Below, piece by piece: positions 5,787-14,770 of a stretch of DNA of 39,022 nt. The notes under the pieces are model-generated. The model was not told the origin of the DNA. It saw only the letters and a list, made by a program, of their open reading frames with translations, and did no database searches. The position numbers and the translations under genes were made by a program. Origin of the DNA: Bacteroidales bacterium (GTDB lineage Bacteria > Bacteroidota > Bacteroidia > Bacteroidales > ML635J-15); assembly GCA_027858835.1 (NCBI GenBank), contig JAQIBY010000079.1, positions 1 to 39,022 of the forward strand, given 5' to 3'. Each line of letters begins with the position of its first letter. Position 1 is the stretch's first letter.

Positions 5787-6457
5787 AGATTTCTCTAACA
5801 GTCTATTTGTTGTTTCCTGTTTTCGACACTGGGTCACCCACATTTTATTGTCGTAAATAACTTGAGTAATTACCGTTTGCACAAAAGGATACTTTTTTTT
5901 AACCCTACTTTCTTTCCAATCCCGAATCACTGAATGTGAAATTTTGAGTGTTCGGGATAAAAACGCTTAAAATATGTGATAGCTAAAGCTAATCGTAACC
6001 TTCCGAAAATAAGCATTCAGAAGTCTTCTGGAAGAAGACTATGCGGGTGGGAATGGCAGACCGCTCGCCCGTGATGGTTGTGAATGTCGGATTTTTGTTG
6101 TAAAATCAATCAGATGCTTTAGACACGTTCTGATTAGATTTTACAAAAATCCGGCAGAGAGGGTAAGCTGTCGGTGCTGCCTTGTCTTTTTTGCTTCCTT
6201 TTTTTGACTAAGAAAAAAAGGAAGATGGAAAAACTTGCTAATATTTAGGTCTAATCGCTTTGTTTCTTTCTTTTATAGTTTTTTAAAAATATTTATCCTC
6301 CCTTTTTTATTACAAATGGTTAATCATTATAATCTGGTCTGGTCAACTAAATCACTGTCTTGATTGATTCTAAATGACTGATTTTGTTAAGAATGTGTTT
6401 TTGTAATGATAGAAGTGTCGAAAACCGGAGATTTCTCTAACAGTCTATTTGTTGTTT
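5787..6457. mobile_element. Non-coding segment bounded by 29-bp direct repeats with inner inverted repeats
   Basis: Identical 29-bp direct repeats lie at 5787-5815 and 6429-6457. Just inside each are inverted 12-bp arms GTTTTCGACACT (5819-5830) and AGTGTCGAAAAC (6414-6425), each 3 bases from its direct repeat. The interior holds hairpins at 6022-6040 (8-bp arms, 3-base loop), 6088-6153 (about 24 paired bases with a small bulge) and 6194-6224 (12-bp perfect arms CTTCCTTTTTTT). A minus-strand frame of about 58 codons without a good start ends at the left repeat; it may be a gene relic. The layout resembles attL/attR around a small integrated element, but there is no recombinase gene. It also fills the 751-base gap between the C1B peptidase and the surface antigen genes. 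Confidence 0.5.
6088..6153. repeat. Long imperfect inverted repeat (hairpin)
   Basis: The arms 6088-6114 and 6129-6153 are complementary over about 24 bases with one 3-base bulge and one extra base; the loop is 14 bases. No T-run follows, so it is not a typical terminator. It lies inside the direct-repeat-bounded segment. Confidence 0.65.
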
Positions 6458-7804: not shown

Positions 7805-7900
7805 AATTTTTGCATTGGTTTATCAGCCACTAAGATATAAATTTATGGGTTATTTGCTTTAATGTTTAGGAATTTTTCCAATAATTCTGCATTTTTTAAT

Positions 7901-8012
7901 TTCACTTTATTAGTTTCGTAACAGAAATAAAATGAACACTTATGAAACGACCTGTCCCAAATGATCGACTTATAGCGATAGCTTGTATGACATCTGTAAG
8001 GGTTGTTAATTC
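7901..8012 (+). repeat. Leader repeat, copy A (duplicated pdx-kinase 5' region)
   Basis: Nearly identical to 9563-9673 (copy B). Its first part, up to the codons for MKRPVP, matches the leader and start of the pyridoxamine kinase gene (copy C, to 11513). It includes a TAGTTTCG promoter-like element and an ATG at 7942. It sits just upstream of the TPR/PD40 gene. Confidence 0.85.
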
Positions 8013-8037
8013 AGTGTTTTTTGTGAAATGTTTTTAG
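7942..8037 (+). pseudogene. 31-codon ORF starting like the pyridoxamine kinase (copy A)
   Basis: The ORF starts MKRPVPNDRLIAIACMTS and stops at TAG 8035. The first six residues equal the N-terminus of the kinase encoded at 11497. The first 24 codons are nearly the same as in the ORF at 9603-9698; the remaining seven differ entirely. It may be a truncated duplicate of the kinase start or a small leader peptide ahead of the gene at 8048. Only the sequence relationship is certain. Confidence 0.4.
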
Positions 8038-8047
8038 TCATACAATT

Positions 8048-9385
8048 ATGAAGCGTATTTTTTTGTTTATGTTCTGTCTAATTGCTTTGCAATCTTTTGG
8101 ACAGGCAGAAAAGGTTAAAGTGAAATTTGGTGATTTTTCTGATATCCGTGATTATAGAAAAGCAAAGTCTTGTTTGAGAGAAGCAAATGATAACTTTATT
8201 TACATGGAGAGTAATCTTATTAGTCGTGATAAATCATTGGAAAATTACCTTACAGTTTGGGAGTTGTATTCTGAAAATGCATGGCTAAACTATAGAATTG
8301 GATATTTATATCAAGAGAAGAATGATTATTCAAAATCTCTCAAGTTTTTACAGAAAGCCAGTGAATTGGATTCTACTGTTTCAGATTTTTTACACTTTCG
8401 ACTTGGGAAAGCTTATCAAATGAATTACAAATTTGATTTGGCTTTGTCCCAATATTTGAAGTTTCGTCAGCACCTTAAAACTTTTAAAACTACCGATAAA
8501 GTTTTACTTGAGTTAATAAGATATGAAGCAAATTGTAAGTGTGCTAAAAATATCCTGAAGGATACATTGGATTACAAAGTGAAAAATATGGGACCTCTTA
8601 TTAATTCAGCTTTTGATGATTATGGTGCATTAGTAGTGAATGATACAATGTATTTTACCTCTCAGCGTATATGGAATGAGAATAGTGTGACACCAAGAGG
8701 AAAAGGATATGAGAATATTTATTTTTCTTGTTTGGAAAATTGTGATGGGAAAGGTGCATGTATTTATGATAAAGATCTAGCAATGAGCAATATGAATAAA
8801 AATATTGCAATGATTACTTTTGATGAAAAAACAAAGCTTTTTATTGTATATAACAATACTGGAGAACTTCATAATAGTTTGTTTTATGCAAAATTTGAAA
8901 ATAATACGATTCAAATTATTGCACCTTTGTTGCCAAGTGTAATAAGTCAGTTTTTTACATATTCTTGTTGTTTTAATAAAAATCATACACAAGTTTTTAT
9001 GATAGGTGTGAGAAAAGACAAATTCGAAGCCTATAATAAGGAAGTATGTTATTCTAATTTTATCGATAGCGTTTGGTGTGAGCCAATGAATATTGGACCC
9101 GTAATTAATACTCCTTTTAATGAGGTTGGATTGTTTCTTTCTGCAGATGGGAACACACTTTATTTTTCATCTCAAGGACATAATTCAATTGGAGGTTATG
9201 ATATTTTTAAATCAGAATTAGATGAAAATGGAAATTGGTCAAAGCCAGTGAATCTTGGATATCCTATAAATACAATTTATGATGATTGCTTTTATTGGGA
9301 AGCAGAGGATGGCAGTAAAGCTTATTTAGCATCAAATCGTAAAGGAGGTATTGGTTCATATGACATATACCAAGTCATAAAATAG
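8048..9385 (+). CDS. Secreted TPR / PD40 beta-propeller-repeat protein
   Basis: A 445-residue protein with a signal peptide (about 1-19, LQSFGQ). Residues about 60-150 form TPR-like helices (YRIGYLYQEKNDYSKSLKFL, then FRLGKAYQM). Later come PD40/WD40-like strands: DDYGALVVNDTMYFTSQR near 190, and FNEVGLFLSADGNTLYFSSQ with GGYDIFKSELD and GSYDIYQV toward the end. This arrangement matches the N-terminal half of the OmpA-family proteins of Bacteroidetes (PorE-like: TPR, PD40, regulatory domain, OmpA), but here the protein stops right after the propeller repeats. It thus lacks a peptidoglycan-binding OmpA domain and a T9SS tail. The gene sits between duplicated leaders A and B and looks like inserted cargo. 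It probably acts in the periplasm or at the outer membrane; the role is unknown. Confidence 0.8.
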   Translation: MKRIFLFMFCLIALQSFGQAEKVKVKFGDFSDIRDYRKAKSCLREANDNFIYMESNLISRDKSLENYLTVWELYSENAWLNYRIGYLYQEKNDYSKSLKFLQKASELDSTVSDFLHFRLGKAYQMNYKFDLALSQYLKFRQHLKTFKTTDKVLLELIRYEANCKCAKNILKDTLDYKVKNMGPLINSAFDDYGALVVNDTMYFTSQRIWNENSVTPRGKGYENIYFSCLENCDGKGACIYDKDLAMSNMNKNIAMITFDEKTKLFIVYNNTGELHNSLFYAKFENNTIQIIAPLLPSVISQFFTYSCCFNKNHTQVFMIGVRKDKFEAYNKEVCYSNFIDSVWCEPMNIGPVINTPFNEVGLFLSADGNTLYFSSQGHNSIGGYDIFKSELDENGNWSKPVNLGYPINTIYDDCFYWEAEDGSKAYLASNRKGGIGSYDIYQVIK

Positions 9386-9418
9386 TTGGTGTCTGGGTTT
9401 ATTTGTATGATTAGAGAG

Positions 9419-9673
9419 ATTCCTCACCCTTGACAGGCAATGAGAAATCTTTTCCCATGTGCAAATCAATAATAATTTTCCATGATAAGTATGATTTTTT
9501 TTAATAGCTCTGCTAGGAAAGGTTTTCCTTACAATTTGAAAAATTACTACCTAATTATCCATTTCATTTATTAGTTTCGTAACAGAAATAAAATGAACAA
9601 TTATGAAGCGACCTGTCCCAAATGATCGACTTATACTGATAGCTTGTATGACATCTGTAAGCGTTGTTAATTC
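9419..9673 (+). repeat. Leader repeat, copy B
   Basis: The part 9419-9619 matches 11335-11513 upstream of the pyridoxamine kinase (copy C lacks about 27 bases near its left end). The part 9563-9673 matches copy A (7901-8012). The left boundary with copy C is sharp and starts ATTCCTCACCCTTGA in both. Confidence 0.88.
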
Positions 9674-9698
9674 TTTTTATTTTTTATGCTTATGTTGA
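9603..9698 (+). pseudogene. 31-codon ORF starting like the pyridoxamine kinase (copy B)
   Basis: The ORF begins MKRPVPNDRLILIACMTS and stops at TGA 9696. It differs from the copy A ORF by two amino acids (A to L, R to S) and one silent change in the first 24 codons, then diverges. It may be a relic of the kinase start or a leader peptide. Confidence 0.4.
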
Positions 9699-9800
9699 AA
9701 ATATGTATTCTCTTTGCCTTTGCTGAACGTCGCATTTTATGACAAATTCAATTGATATTTTTGCCCGTTATCAACCAAGTGAAATGCAATTCAAATGAAC

Positions 9801-9899
9801 ATTCCCTGAAAAAAGTGTGGTTTGATTACAGGTATTCCTTGAAAAAAGTGTTGTTGTAACACATTTATTCCCTGAAAAAAGTGTGCAATAATGACATAA
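9801..9899 (+). repeat. Three direct repeats with a 33-bp period (possible operator/iteron array)
   Basis: The units start at 9801, 9834 and 9867. Each begins with the 19-base core ATTCCCTGAAAAAAGTGTG (the second has two changes), followed by about 14 unrelated bases. The array ends 18 bases before the -7 element of the ATPase gene. The spacing, close to three helical turns, would put protein-binding sites on nearly the same DNA face. Confidence 0.8.
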
Positions 9900-9916
9900 T
9901 TTACATGATAATTATG

Positions 9917-9924
9917 TATATTTG
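9917..9924 (+). promoter_or_regulatory. Bacteroidetes -7 promoter element for the AAA/DUF4143 gene
   Basis: TATATTTG is an exact TAnnTTTG match, 18 bases before the ATG at 9943. The transcript leader would be only about 12 bases. No TTTG -33 element is clear; the upstream iterons may serve an activator or repressor instead. Confidence 0.65.
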
Positions 9925-9942
9925 TGAAAAATACTCAAAACG

Positions 9943-11229
9943 ATGAAAAGAGACAAGCTCGATAGTCTGATAAAATGGAAAAATAGCCGCATACGTAAGC
10001 CGCTGATAATGAGAGGTGCAAGGCAAGTTGGGAAAACTTGGCTGCTTAAAGAATTTGGGAAATCATATTATGATAAGCTTGTTTATGTTAATTTTGAGAA
10101 CACTCCTTCTCTAAAAGAATTATTTAGCACCGATTTAAACATTGAAAGAATCATCTCTGTTTTAGAGATTCACTCAGGAATCAAAATTACTCCAAACGAC
10201 ACGCTAATAGTTCTCGATGAAATTCAGGAAGCTCCTTCAGGATTAACATCGTTAAAGTATTTTTGTGAGAATGCTCCTGATTTACATATTGCCGCAGCTG
10301 GGTCTTTACTTGGTTTATCTGCGTCAAACAAATCATCATTTCCGGTTGGGAAGGTTGATTTTTTGGATTTACATCCTATGTCTTTTTTTGAATTCATCTC
10401 AGCCCTTGGGAAAAGAAAGCTTTCAGAAGCTATCAAGACTGAGAGCTGGGCATCAGTTGATATTTTTCATGATGAATTAATAAATCATTTACGCACTTAC
10501 TATTATGTTGGTGGGATGCCTGAGGTTGTTCAAAATTATATTAACAATAAAAATTGGGAAGAGGTAAGGCTAATACAGCAAAGAATATTAAACTCCTATG
10601 AAGCCGATTTTTCGAAACATGCTCCAATTGAAATTGTTCCTCGAATTCGCATGGTTTGGCAAAGCATACCATTACAATTAGCAAAAGAGAACAAAAAATT
10701 TGTTTATGGTGCTATACGGAGTGGAGCTAGAGCAAAAGACTTTGAGTTAGCGATACAATGGCTTGTTGATGCTGGGGTACTTTTAAAAGTAAATCGGATA
10801 ACGAAGCCTGAGTTGCCAATTAATGCTTTTCTTGATACAGATGCATTTAAATTGTATTTGCATGATGTCGGTTTACTCTCTGCTATGGTCAAGCTTGATA
10901 TTAAATCGCTTATACAGGGGAATGAGTTATTTTCACAATTCAAAGGAGCACTTACTGAGCAATATGTATGTGAACAACTACAAAATATTGAAGACTCAGA
11001 AATAGCATACTGGACAAATAGCCGAAGTACATCCGAAGTGGATTTCATACTACAAACTAATTCTGAAGTAATTCCAATAGAAGTAAAAGCTGAGAAGAAT
11101 ATAAAAGCAAAGAGTTTTAAACTTTTTTGTGAAAAATACCAACCACAAAATGCGATTAAAACATCTTTGCTAAAATACAAAAAGCAAAGCTGGATGACTA
11201 ACATCCCTCTATATGCGATAGGTGTATAA
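9943..11229 (+). CDS. AAA ATPase with DUF4143 C-terminal domain
   Basis: A 428-residue protein of the AAA_14/DUF4143 family. Walker A is GARQVGKT (25-32) and Walker B is LIVLDEIQ (D92, E93). The C-terminal DUF4143 part contains SEVDFIL (D367) and PIEVKAE (E380, K382), the D-(E)xK pattern of a PD-(D/E)XK nuclease-like fold. Such proteins are widespread, often strain-variable, and their biological role is not settled. Here the gene is alone behind leader copy B, the 33-bp repeats and a strong -7 element, and ahead of leader copy C, so it appears to have been inserted between duplicated copies of the pyridoxamine kinase leader. The nearby iterons suggest dedicated regulation. Whether the nuclease-like motif is active is unknown. 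Confidence 0.92.
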   Translation: MKRDKLDSLIKWKNSRIRKPLIMRGARQVGKTWLLKEFGKSYYDKLVYVNFENTPSLKELFSTDLNIERIISVLEIHSGIKITPNDTLIVLDEIQEAPSGLTSLKYFCENAPDLHIAAAGSLLGLSASNKSSFPVGKVDFLDLHPMSFFEFISALGKRKLSEAIKTESWASVDIFHDELINHLRTYYYVGGMPEVVQNYINNKNWEEVRLIQQRILNSYEADFSKHAPIEIVPRIRMVWQSIPLQLAKENKKFVYGAIRSGARAKDFELAIQWLVDAGVLLKVNRITKPELPINAFLDTDAFKLYLHDVGLLSAMVKLDIKSLIQGNELFSQFKGALTEQYVCEQLQNIEDSEIAYWTNSRSTSEVDFILQTNSEVIPIEVKAEKNIKAKSFKLFCEKYQPQNAIKTSLLKYKKQSWMTNIPLYAIGV

Positions 11230-11334
11230 ATTTAAGAATCTGTCTAATATCAATGAAACTTTATCAGTTCTTTATGTATTAATGGTTTATTGAATGAACA
11301 AATTTCCTCCTCAAAATTCCGAATAAAAACTGTC

Positions 11335-11513
11335 ATTCCTCACCCTTGATGTACAAATCAATAATAATTTTCCATGATAAGCATGATTTATTCTTAAATA
11401 GCTCTGCCAGGAAAGGTTTTCCTTACAATTTGAAAAAATACTACCTAATTATCCATTTCATTTATTAGTTTCGTAACAGAAATAAAATGAACAATTATGA
11501 AGCGACCTGTCCC
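11335..11513 (+). repeat. Leader repeat, copy C (native pdx-kinase leader and first codons)
   Basis: Matches 9419-9619 from ATTCCTCACCCTTGA up to the codons for MKRPVP, where similarity stops and the intact kinase reading frame continues. It is the only copy joined to a full-length gene, so it is the likely source. Confidence 0.85.
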
Positions 11514-12366
11514 TAGAATTGCTGCTATCCATGACCTCTCCGGTATTGGAAGAGTATCATTGTCAAGCATTTTTCCGATTTTTTCAACCATGGGAATTCA
11601 GGTGTGTGCTTTGCCGACAGCTGTATTGTCATCCCACACACAGTATCCCGGGGTTAAGCTTTTGAGTTTGGATGATCAAATGATAGAATTCATTGCCCAT
11701 TGGAAAGCCTTAAACATGGATTTTGATGCCATTTATAGCGGATACCTCGGGTCTATCCATCAAATTGATATTGTCCGCGATTTTATCGACGATTTTAAAC
11801 GAGATGATCAATTGGTTGTTGTCGATCCTGTAATGGCTGATAATGGTGAATTATATACAACTTTTACAGATGAGATGGTGATCGAAATGCGACGATTAAT
11901 TGAGAAAGCTGATATGATTACTCCAAATCTTACCGAGGCTGCATTTTTACTAGGAGAGGAGTACTCAGATATCATTTCCATTGAAAAAGTGAAGCAATGG
12001 TGTTTGACTTTGGCTGAAAAAGGACCTGAAATTATCATCATAACTTCAGTTCCCGAAGAAAATGGGAAAAAAGCTGCAAGCATTGCCTATCATGCACGTA
12101 CTAAGCGTTTTTGGAAAGTTTCTGTAGATTATCTGCCTGCTTCTTATCCCGGCACCGGAGATGCTTTCACCTCCGTTTTAACCGCTGCAATTATGCAGGG
12201 CGACTCATTGCCGATTGCTTTAGACCGTGCCGTGAATTTTATCAGCCTCGGCGTTCGTGCAACGTTTGGGCACGATTACGACCCACGTGAAGGCATAATG
12301 TTAGAGCGTGTTTTACACACACTTGACGGTCCGGTGCAATCCAGTTCTTATCAAATACTTGATTAA
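11497..12366 (+). CDS. Pyridoxamine / pyridoxal kinase (PdxY/PdxK-like)
   Basis: A 289-residue ribokinase-superfamily enzyme that phosphorylates pyridoxal, pyridoxine or pyridoxamine with ATP in vitamin B6 salvage. The N-terminus has the motif HDLSGIGRVSLS, followed by ALPTAVLSSHTQYPG (substrate-binding region) and VVVDPVMADNGELY. The ATP site PGTGDAFTSV holds the catalytic base D222. Length and motif order match the family. The gene overlaps nothing and is followed after 8 bases by a HAD phosphatase gene, so the two are likely co-transcribed and end at the terminator at 13262-13290. Its leader and first six codons are duplicated twice upstream (7901 and 9419). Which B6 vitamer it prefers cannot be read from the sequence. 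Confidence 0.93.
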   Translation: MKRPVPRIAAIHDLSGIGRVSLSSIFPIFSTMGIQVCALPTAVLSSHTQYPGVKLLSLDDQMIEFIAHWKALNMDFDAIYSGYLGSIHQIDIVRDFIDDFKRDDQLVVVDPVMADNGELYTTFTDEMVIEMRRLIEKADMITPNLTEAAFLLGEEYSDIISIEKVKQWCLTLAEKGPEIIIITSVPEENGKKAASIAYHARTKRFWKVSVDYLPASYPGTGDAFTSVLTAAIMQGDSLPIALDRAVNFISLGVRATFGHDYDPREGIMLERVLHTLDGPVQSSSYQILD

Positions 12367-13202: not shown

Positions 13203-13261
13203 GCACATTTTGATTGCATATTTTGAGGAATAATATATTTTTGGCTATCTAATCAACCCCC

Positions 13262-13290
13262 AAAAACCGCTGTTTACCGCAGCGGTTTTT
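13262..13290 (+). terminator. Intrinsic terminator of the pyridoxamine kinase-HAD operon
   Basis: Perfect 11-bp arms AAAAACCGCTG and CAGCGGTTTTT with a 7-base loop and an 8-T run. The same sequence recurs at 14520-14548. Confidence 0.9.
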
Positions 13291-13398
13291 TTTGATTTTA
13301 ACCACACTGCACAAGCTCAAATTACAAATTGGGAAGATTATTCGCAGAGTTTGATGAGAATTTAGTGAGAAATACTTGCAATTTGCTTGGTTTTGGCG

Positions 13399-14497: not shown

Positions 14498-14519
14498 AAT
14501 TTGATGTTAAAAAACCCCC

Positions 14520-14548
14520 AAAAACCGCTGTTTACCGCAGCGGTTTTT
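14520..14548 (+). terminator. Intrinsic terminator, second copy
   Basis: The same stem and loop as 13262-13290, with a 9-T run. Identity extends a few bases to each side (about 14513-14558). It closes the prodomain-like gene and pseudogene unit. Confidence 0.88.
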
Positions 14549-14722
14549 TTTTGATTTTCTGCAAAGTTTTTCATAATACCGATTAAACATCAAAATGGCG
14601 CATACTTTCACTTCGTTCTGTATGCTTGTTTTGCTGTAATATCGGCATTATACCGAAATTTTTGATTTTAAAGTGGTATAATATCGGCATTAACCTTCTG
14701 AAATGAATTCGGAATAAGAATT

Positions 14723-14770
14723 GGTAGTTTCAAAATTTCTTTGTCAATCATTTGGAAACACAATTGGTAT
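14723..14770 (-). repeat. Dispersed intergenic repeat, copy 2 (inverted)
   Basis: On the minus strand it begins ATACCAATTGTGTTTC and continues with AAAGAAATTTTGAAAC, matching 829-869 and 20437-20480. Confidence 0.7.

Follow-up and report, generated by a model that had tools for sequence, protein, structure and literature searches.

Two single-gene units, probably tandem insertions at the 5' end of a pyridoxamine kinase gene, and direct repeats around AAA_14-DUF4143 genes in Bacteroidales

Insertion with long target duplication was reportedly described for restriction-modification genes by Nobusato et al. in 2000, and non-autonomous integrative elements, such as cis-mobilizable elements (CIMEs), are bounded by attL and attR sites and can build up in tandem by accretion. 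By what means single accessory genes spread when no recombinase is in sight is still debated, and we address the question here with a 39,022-nt stretch from a Bacteroidales bacterium (the window, by which we mean the whole stretch analysed; contig 115 of a 3.6-Mb genome in 184 contigs). In it a pyridoxamine kinase gene is preceded by two different genes, one for a TPR/PD40 protein and one for an AAA_14-DUF4143 ATPase of the PDC-S01 family, each lying between copies of the kinase leader. Passages in four papers describe long target duplication in connection with restriction-modification genes and put the size of the duplicated DNA at the order of 100 bp (PMC1643837, PMC3031569, PMC3874152, PMC4978471). 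The passages available on PDC-S01 present it as a candidate defence gene and leave flanking duplications and motif arrays unmentioned (PMC12988326, PMC13356809); one of these sources presents the protein as a fusion between an ATPase and a PD-(D/E)-X-K member and ranks PDC-S01, in its survey, as the fourth most common defence across prokaryotes (PMC12988326). The literature searches that we made returned no report of long target duplication for AAA_14-DUF4143 genes.

The window offers one site with two different cargo genes between the same ends. Our assessment, held with some reserve, is that two single-gene units (TPR/PD40 and AAA_14-DUF4143) probably arose as tandem insertions at the pyridoxamine kinase gene's 5' end, with long target duplication.

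Junctions at the pyridoxamine kinase gene

The initial annotation placed near-identical leaders at 7901–8012, 9419–9673 and 11335–11513, and they are found there: the start codons lie at 7942 (copy A), 9603 (copy B) and 11497 (copy C), and the longest exact repeat in the window, 75 bp (9545 / 11439), is far above the 14–17 bp seen in five Markov-model controls. BLAST paired 9457–9619 with 11349–11513 (B with C, X-core; 157/165 columns, 95.2%), 7899–8022 with 9561–9683 (A with B, core-Y; 114/124 columns, 91.9%) and, more weakly, 7875–7958 with 11429–11513 (A with C, including the core; 83.7% over 86 columns). Of the long stretches said there to agree base for base, a 53-bp core is the sole part common to all three copies (51/53 between A and B, 53/53 between B and C); the arms agree pairwise only, with a right arm Y of about 56 bp 3' of the core in A and B, and a left arm X of about 112 bp 5' of the core in B and C. 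Each copy has the promoter-like element and the MKRPVP codons and only the last leads into a full kinase, as annotated; beyond MKRPVP the copies diverge, A and B entering mini open reading frames (ORFs) of 31 codons and the kinase following only after C. The features are as follows.

7906–7958, + strand: core, copy A, with promoter-like element, 5' untranslated region and codons for MKRPVP; 51/53 against B and C
7942–8037, + strand: mini-ORF of copy A, 31 codons, MKRPVP start; probably a by-product
7959–8014, + strand: right arm Y, copy A; 51/56 against copy B, not significantly similar to the kinase coding sequence
8048–9385, + strand: cargo 1, TPR/PD40 protein of 445 aa (domain search); signal-peptide-like start by eye
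9457–9566, + strand: left arm X, copy B; 105/112 against copy C, with an extra short match from near 9419
9567–9619, + strand: core, copy B; 53/53 against copy C
9603–9698: mini-ORF of copy B, 31 codons, MKRPVP start
9620–9675, + strand: right arm Y, copy B, completing an attP-like X-core-Y composite
9801–9884, + strand: 18-bp motif in three copies at 33-bp spacing, 5' of the AAA gene; one place in the rest of the assembly, with 2 mismatches
9943–11229, + strand: cargo 2, AAA_14-DUF4143 ATPase (PADLOC PDC-S01); AAA_14 and DUF4143 both above cut-off
11349–11460, + strand: left arm X, copy C
11461–11513, + strand: core, copy C, which opens the intact kinase gene
11497–12366, + strand: target gene, pyridoxamine kinase of 289 aa; profile match NF005491 at 384.6 bits (cut-off 231)

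From left to right the order is outside flank-core-Y, TPR gene, X-core-Y, AAA gene and X-core-kinase, which is the layout of a site-specific element: a common core, unlike arms at the two ends and a composite between tandem units. Long direct repeats of target sequence flank the inserts; the kinase start codon lies in the core, and X is putative target sequence. What all copies share, the core, is the 5' end of the target gene itself, and X and Y behave like the ends of an inserted unit. Each unit starts with Y, the left end that both have in common, finishes with X, their common right end, and closes with the kinase leader and its first six codons; flank-core-Y has the layout of a left junction, X-core-Y that of an internal composite and X-core-kinase that of a right junction. 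Tandem insertion of two same-ended units at one target would give exactly the left junction, composite and right junction observed, and because a unit closes with a copy of the kinase front end, the kinase keeps its full leader and start. Entry was probably by insertion with long target duplication, for which either an enzyme working in trans or the host's own recombination between homologous gene ends would be responsible. The idea put forward at the outset, that a single gene took up insertions repeatedly at its 5' end and was rebuilt each time, survives as the best reading of the junctions, without its picture of a single fixed leader; the cassette system with a fixed leader, offered beside it, does not suit a core that belongs to the target gene itself and arms that act as unit ends.

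Other ideas about the leaders were tried and rejected. Y did not stand out as a decayed kinase 5' end, its protein score being reached by 158/2000 shuffles for A and 1166/2000 for B, and the DNA score of B by 262/500. Homology of the left flank of A to X was weak for the flank alone (score reached by 18–22/500 shuffles at 25–40 bp, 111–183/500 at 15–20 bp and 69/300 at 120 bp) and was not used. Divergence neither dates the insertions nor puts them in order, B–C and A–B not differing significantly (p 0.33). Self-comparison of the window revealed no inverted pair connecting both ends of a unit, as terminal inverted repeats would; two inverted pairs connect the core of B or C with the interior of the TPR gene. 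A 21-nt stretch in that gene (8867–8887) is 86% complementary to 9588–9608 and 11482–11502 in cores B and C, which may be chance.

Domain searches agree that the cargo behind A and behind B is unrelated, and that neither gene has a recombinase or transposase domain, as the initial annotation had noted of the units; the search covered the two cargo genes, and a 166-aa antisense ORF overlapping the AAA gene was not searched. Cargo 2 gave a full-length match to the PDC-S01 profile PDLC04786 (residues 1–427, E 7e-183). Residues D367, E380 and K382, a D...ExK motif of the PD-(D/E)XK type, were invariant in 15/15 aligned relatives, as were residues of Walker type. A PDB sequence search yielded no match with the AAA protein, a search with the alignment gave two marginal unrelated matches, and single-sequence structure prediction was unsuccessful, with a mean pLDDT (predicted local distance difference test) of 33.

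Searching its own genome with copy B returned the three leaders in the window and no further place at E 0.001. Among 295 genomes of the order, with two candidates scored per genome, six others had weak short matches, the best being 78% over 53 bp in unrelated-looking sequence of genome G107. No leader was found in plasmids or phages, and two exact leader words were absent from viral contigs. A contig scan across genomes gave a same-genus kinase contig and one distant locus. In this one same-genus relative the kinase is 75% identical, and the 453 bp of DNA upstream have no visible leader copy and, by eye, bear no resemblance to the leader at all. A three-leader layout shared by relatives, which would have pointed to a single old duplication, was therefore not seen in that relative.

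Direct repeats and motif arrays around AAA_14-DUF4143 genes

Relatives of the AAA protein at E 1e-60 or better were found in 70/198 genomes of the order. We sampled 60 stretches at better matches and 40 at weaker ones, and drew a further 35 at random, each from a different one of these genomes; the AAA stretches were chosen down the list of E-values, some being left out, mostly at contig ends. For ORFs of 300–600 aa with room on both sides, the 500 bp upstream were aligned to the 500 bp downstream, and a score of at least 21 was counted as a direct repeat. Such flanks were present at 21/100 AAA genes (16/60 in the first set, 5/40 in the second) as against 0/159 ORFs of random stretches (Fisher 5e-10), and at 11/164 other ORFs in the AAA stretches (AAA genes versus these, Fisher 8e-4). 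The 21 positives are spread over 19 stretches, and three of them come from genome G102. A hand filter against dispersed, simple, terminator-like and motif-array repeats removed ten stretches (L072, L088, L093, L100, L105, L112, L120, L185, L190 and L199) and left 11/100 (p 2e-5, window included), with two of the five second-set positives kept (L163 and L191). Retention of L111 (four local hits) and L163 (three local copies) is arguable, and without both the count is 9/100 (p 1.5e-4). With the window excluded the counts are 20/99 unfiltered and 10/99 hand-filtered. First looks with 600-bp flanks had given 17/61 AAA genes and 8/113 others.

Several of the repeats are the end of a neighbouring gene, doubled across the AAA gene. 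In G188 (L068) the duplicated end is that of isocitrate dehydrogenase (icd), and in the genome of the window itself, at its second AAA gene (L097), that of ribose-5-phosphate isomerase B (rpiB). In G048 (L082) a DUF4867 gene has its stop codon and a terminator-like stretch duplicated. In G102 (L092) a sugar transferase gene end occurs in three copies with two tandem AAA genes, the third and older copy being visible in local comparison only. When the repeats were searched against their own genomes, G188, G102 and G048 each gave two places, both adjoining the AAA gene, and rpiB (G000) gave two places beside the AAA gene plus a weak inverted match within the repeat. Between orphan and attached copies, icd shows 4 nonsynonymous and 2 synonymous codon differences and the G102 gene 7 and 5, the stop being lost in both, and rpiB shows 0 and 1. 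Outside the order, the end of a Ppx/GppA gene stands on both sides of the AAA gene in G392 (L228), and a more decayed ppx/GppA gene-end duplication was found in G530 (L229); of the 14 loci compared outside the order, four scored at least 30 and ten were without, and for two of the four, L230 and L231, no link to a gene end was established.

A second mark lies upstream of the gene. Within 250 bp, 72/108 AAA genes have a word repeated at a 32- or 33-bp period, compared with 8/307 ORFs of random stretches and 17/391 other ORFs of AAA stretches; a period of 27/28 was seen in 6 of the 108 and of 38/39 in 1. The words vary from locus to locus, and at L089, L112, L185 and L190 an array is also present 3' of the gene. 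The AAA_14-DUF4143 protein would, we infer, bind its own array.

Of the 11 positive neighbouring ORFs, seven were identified: three SLFN_AlbA_2 genes, a DUF234 ATPase (PDC-S27), a SoFic gene, a distant PDC-S01 gene that the AAA screen had missed and that was counted as 'other' (L182), and a BACON protein adjoining an AAA gene; an eighth is the TPR gene of the window. In the vicinity of AAA genes, long direct repeats also flank genes for a DUF234 ATPase, SoFic and SLFN_AlbA_2 proteins (L118:8520-9869, L118:11436-12539, L111:1386-2900 and L167:1482-2978). The flanking-repeat pattern may cover several single-gene accessory families.

AAA relatives were found in 13 records of a phage collection, and a pattern search of viral contigs returned none. 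Eight plasmid loci were compared, with repeats at two (L204, L205) and none at six; at L205, whose plasmid comes from another phylum, the repeat on either side of the AAA gene measures 88 bp (87.5%). On Bacteroides-type plasmids an AAA segment, which starts about 134 bp upstream of the gene and stops 5 bp past its stop codon, fills the space that related plasmids give to most of a hipBST operon, the flanks being the same (L203 and L210 versus L207 and L208), with no flanking repeat. As the start of hipB is left over, the AAA gene would be the newcomer, and AAA genes can probably enter by substitution as well; duplication is thus probably not the sole route.

The association of direct repeats with the AAA family is statistically strong, and the protein may have a causal part in it. 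It is doubtful, in our estimate, that the AAA_14-DUF4143 gene with its own 32/33-bp array forms a minimal mobile element whose ATPase-nuclease would insert the gene beside gene ends and duplicate them.

Weighing the explanations

Several points weigh against tandem insertion with target duplication. The TPR gene is outside the AAA family, so its mover is not accounted for, and an empty site at the kinase locus is lacking. The survey itself has weak spots: 10 of the 21 repeats sit in stretches removed by hand, the score cut-off was fixed after the first looks, and the enrichment extends to the other ORFs beside AAA genes, so that the place, not the gene alone, may matter. The plasmid AAA segment stands in the position of hipBST without any repeat, the source is a 184-contig assembly, and the core with its arms could stem from a single unit that underwent unequal recombination, one cargo being exchanged later.

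This last course is the foremost alternative, possible if somewhat unlikely: one insertion, Y-gene-X between cores, would have been doubled by unequal homologous recombination, and the AAA gene with its array would later have replaced one cargo. Crossing-over between two cores yields the X-core-Y composite, the plasmid loci provide a case of an AAA segment standing in for other genes without a repeat, and a short signal-peptide-like frame seen by eye after Y in unit 2 could be a stub of the lost cargo. It requires two events plus a full replacement, however, and self-comparisons reported no repeat shared by the TPR gene and unit 2 apart from the arms, the core and short chance-like matches.

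The attL / attP / attR junction layout, and units that share both ends and not their cargo, would suit classical site-specific integration too: the integrase would be encoded elsewhere, the kinase leader would hold attB, X-core-Y would be attP and the units would be non-autonomous passengers. We consider this quite improbable, since the arms have no further copy in the genome and the matches elsewhere are the weak, short ones in six genomes, with none in plasmids or phages. No integrase was identified, the genome not having been searched for one, and as the repeats vary between loci no single integrase explains the family.

A misresolved repeat, the AAA unit being a circle or a strain variant, is very improbable. 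Copies B and C are identical over the 75 bp and the assembly is fragmented, but the differences in the arms suffice to place longer reads, and tandem gene-end duplication recurs in an independent genome (G102). Integron-like cassettes with an attC-type site are hardly credible, for all their fixed ends and variable cargo, given that five leader stretches fold no better than shuffles (z -0.40 to 0.29) and that the target gene's own start codon lies inside the conserved block.

Neighbouring features and known systems

Elsewhere in the window, a 29-bp perfect direct repeat (5787–5815 / 6429–6457) brackets about 610 bp, and directly within it lie inverted ends of 11 bp; the stretch 5787–6457 has no listed ORF of at least 80 aa and resembles a small non-coding insertion. 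Terminator-like stretches at 13250–13293 and 14508–14551, 95% alike, stand around a gene with a secretion-tail domain; this gene may be one more with duplicated DNA on both sides, or else the stretches are a common terminator. Sequence at about 14570–14770 recurs, by eye, on contig 85 of this genome, next to the second AAA gene (L026 upstream), and is probably a small dispersed element. Near the left contig end, 94–675 encodes a protein matching the SoFic and PDC-S04 profiles. No match to a known RNA or tRNA was obtained in the window.

If AAA genes were self-mobile, one of the commonest 'candidate defence' families would be so abundant in part because it moves itself, and it would carry neighbours, the TPR gene among them, in the same way. 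Duplicated gene ends together with the motif array would be countable marks of insertion, by which the spread of PDC-S01 becomes testable.

The locus resembles non-autonomous integrative elements such as CIMEs in its direct-repeat junctions, its tandem arrangement, its restored target gene and the lack of a recombinase of its own. It differs from them in that the units are only about 1.7–1.9 kb with one gene each, and no autonomous partner was found. To the long target duplication of restriction-modification genes it is alike in having a unit without known transposase between direct repeats of about 100 bp made from target DNA. It is unlike those published cases in its cargo, neither gene being of restriction-modification type in profile searches, in that some of the repeats are gene ends, and in the tandem units that share their ends and carry different genes.

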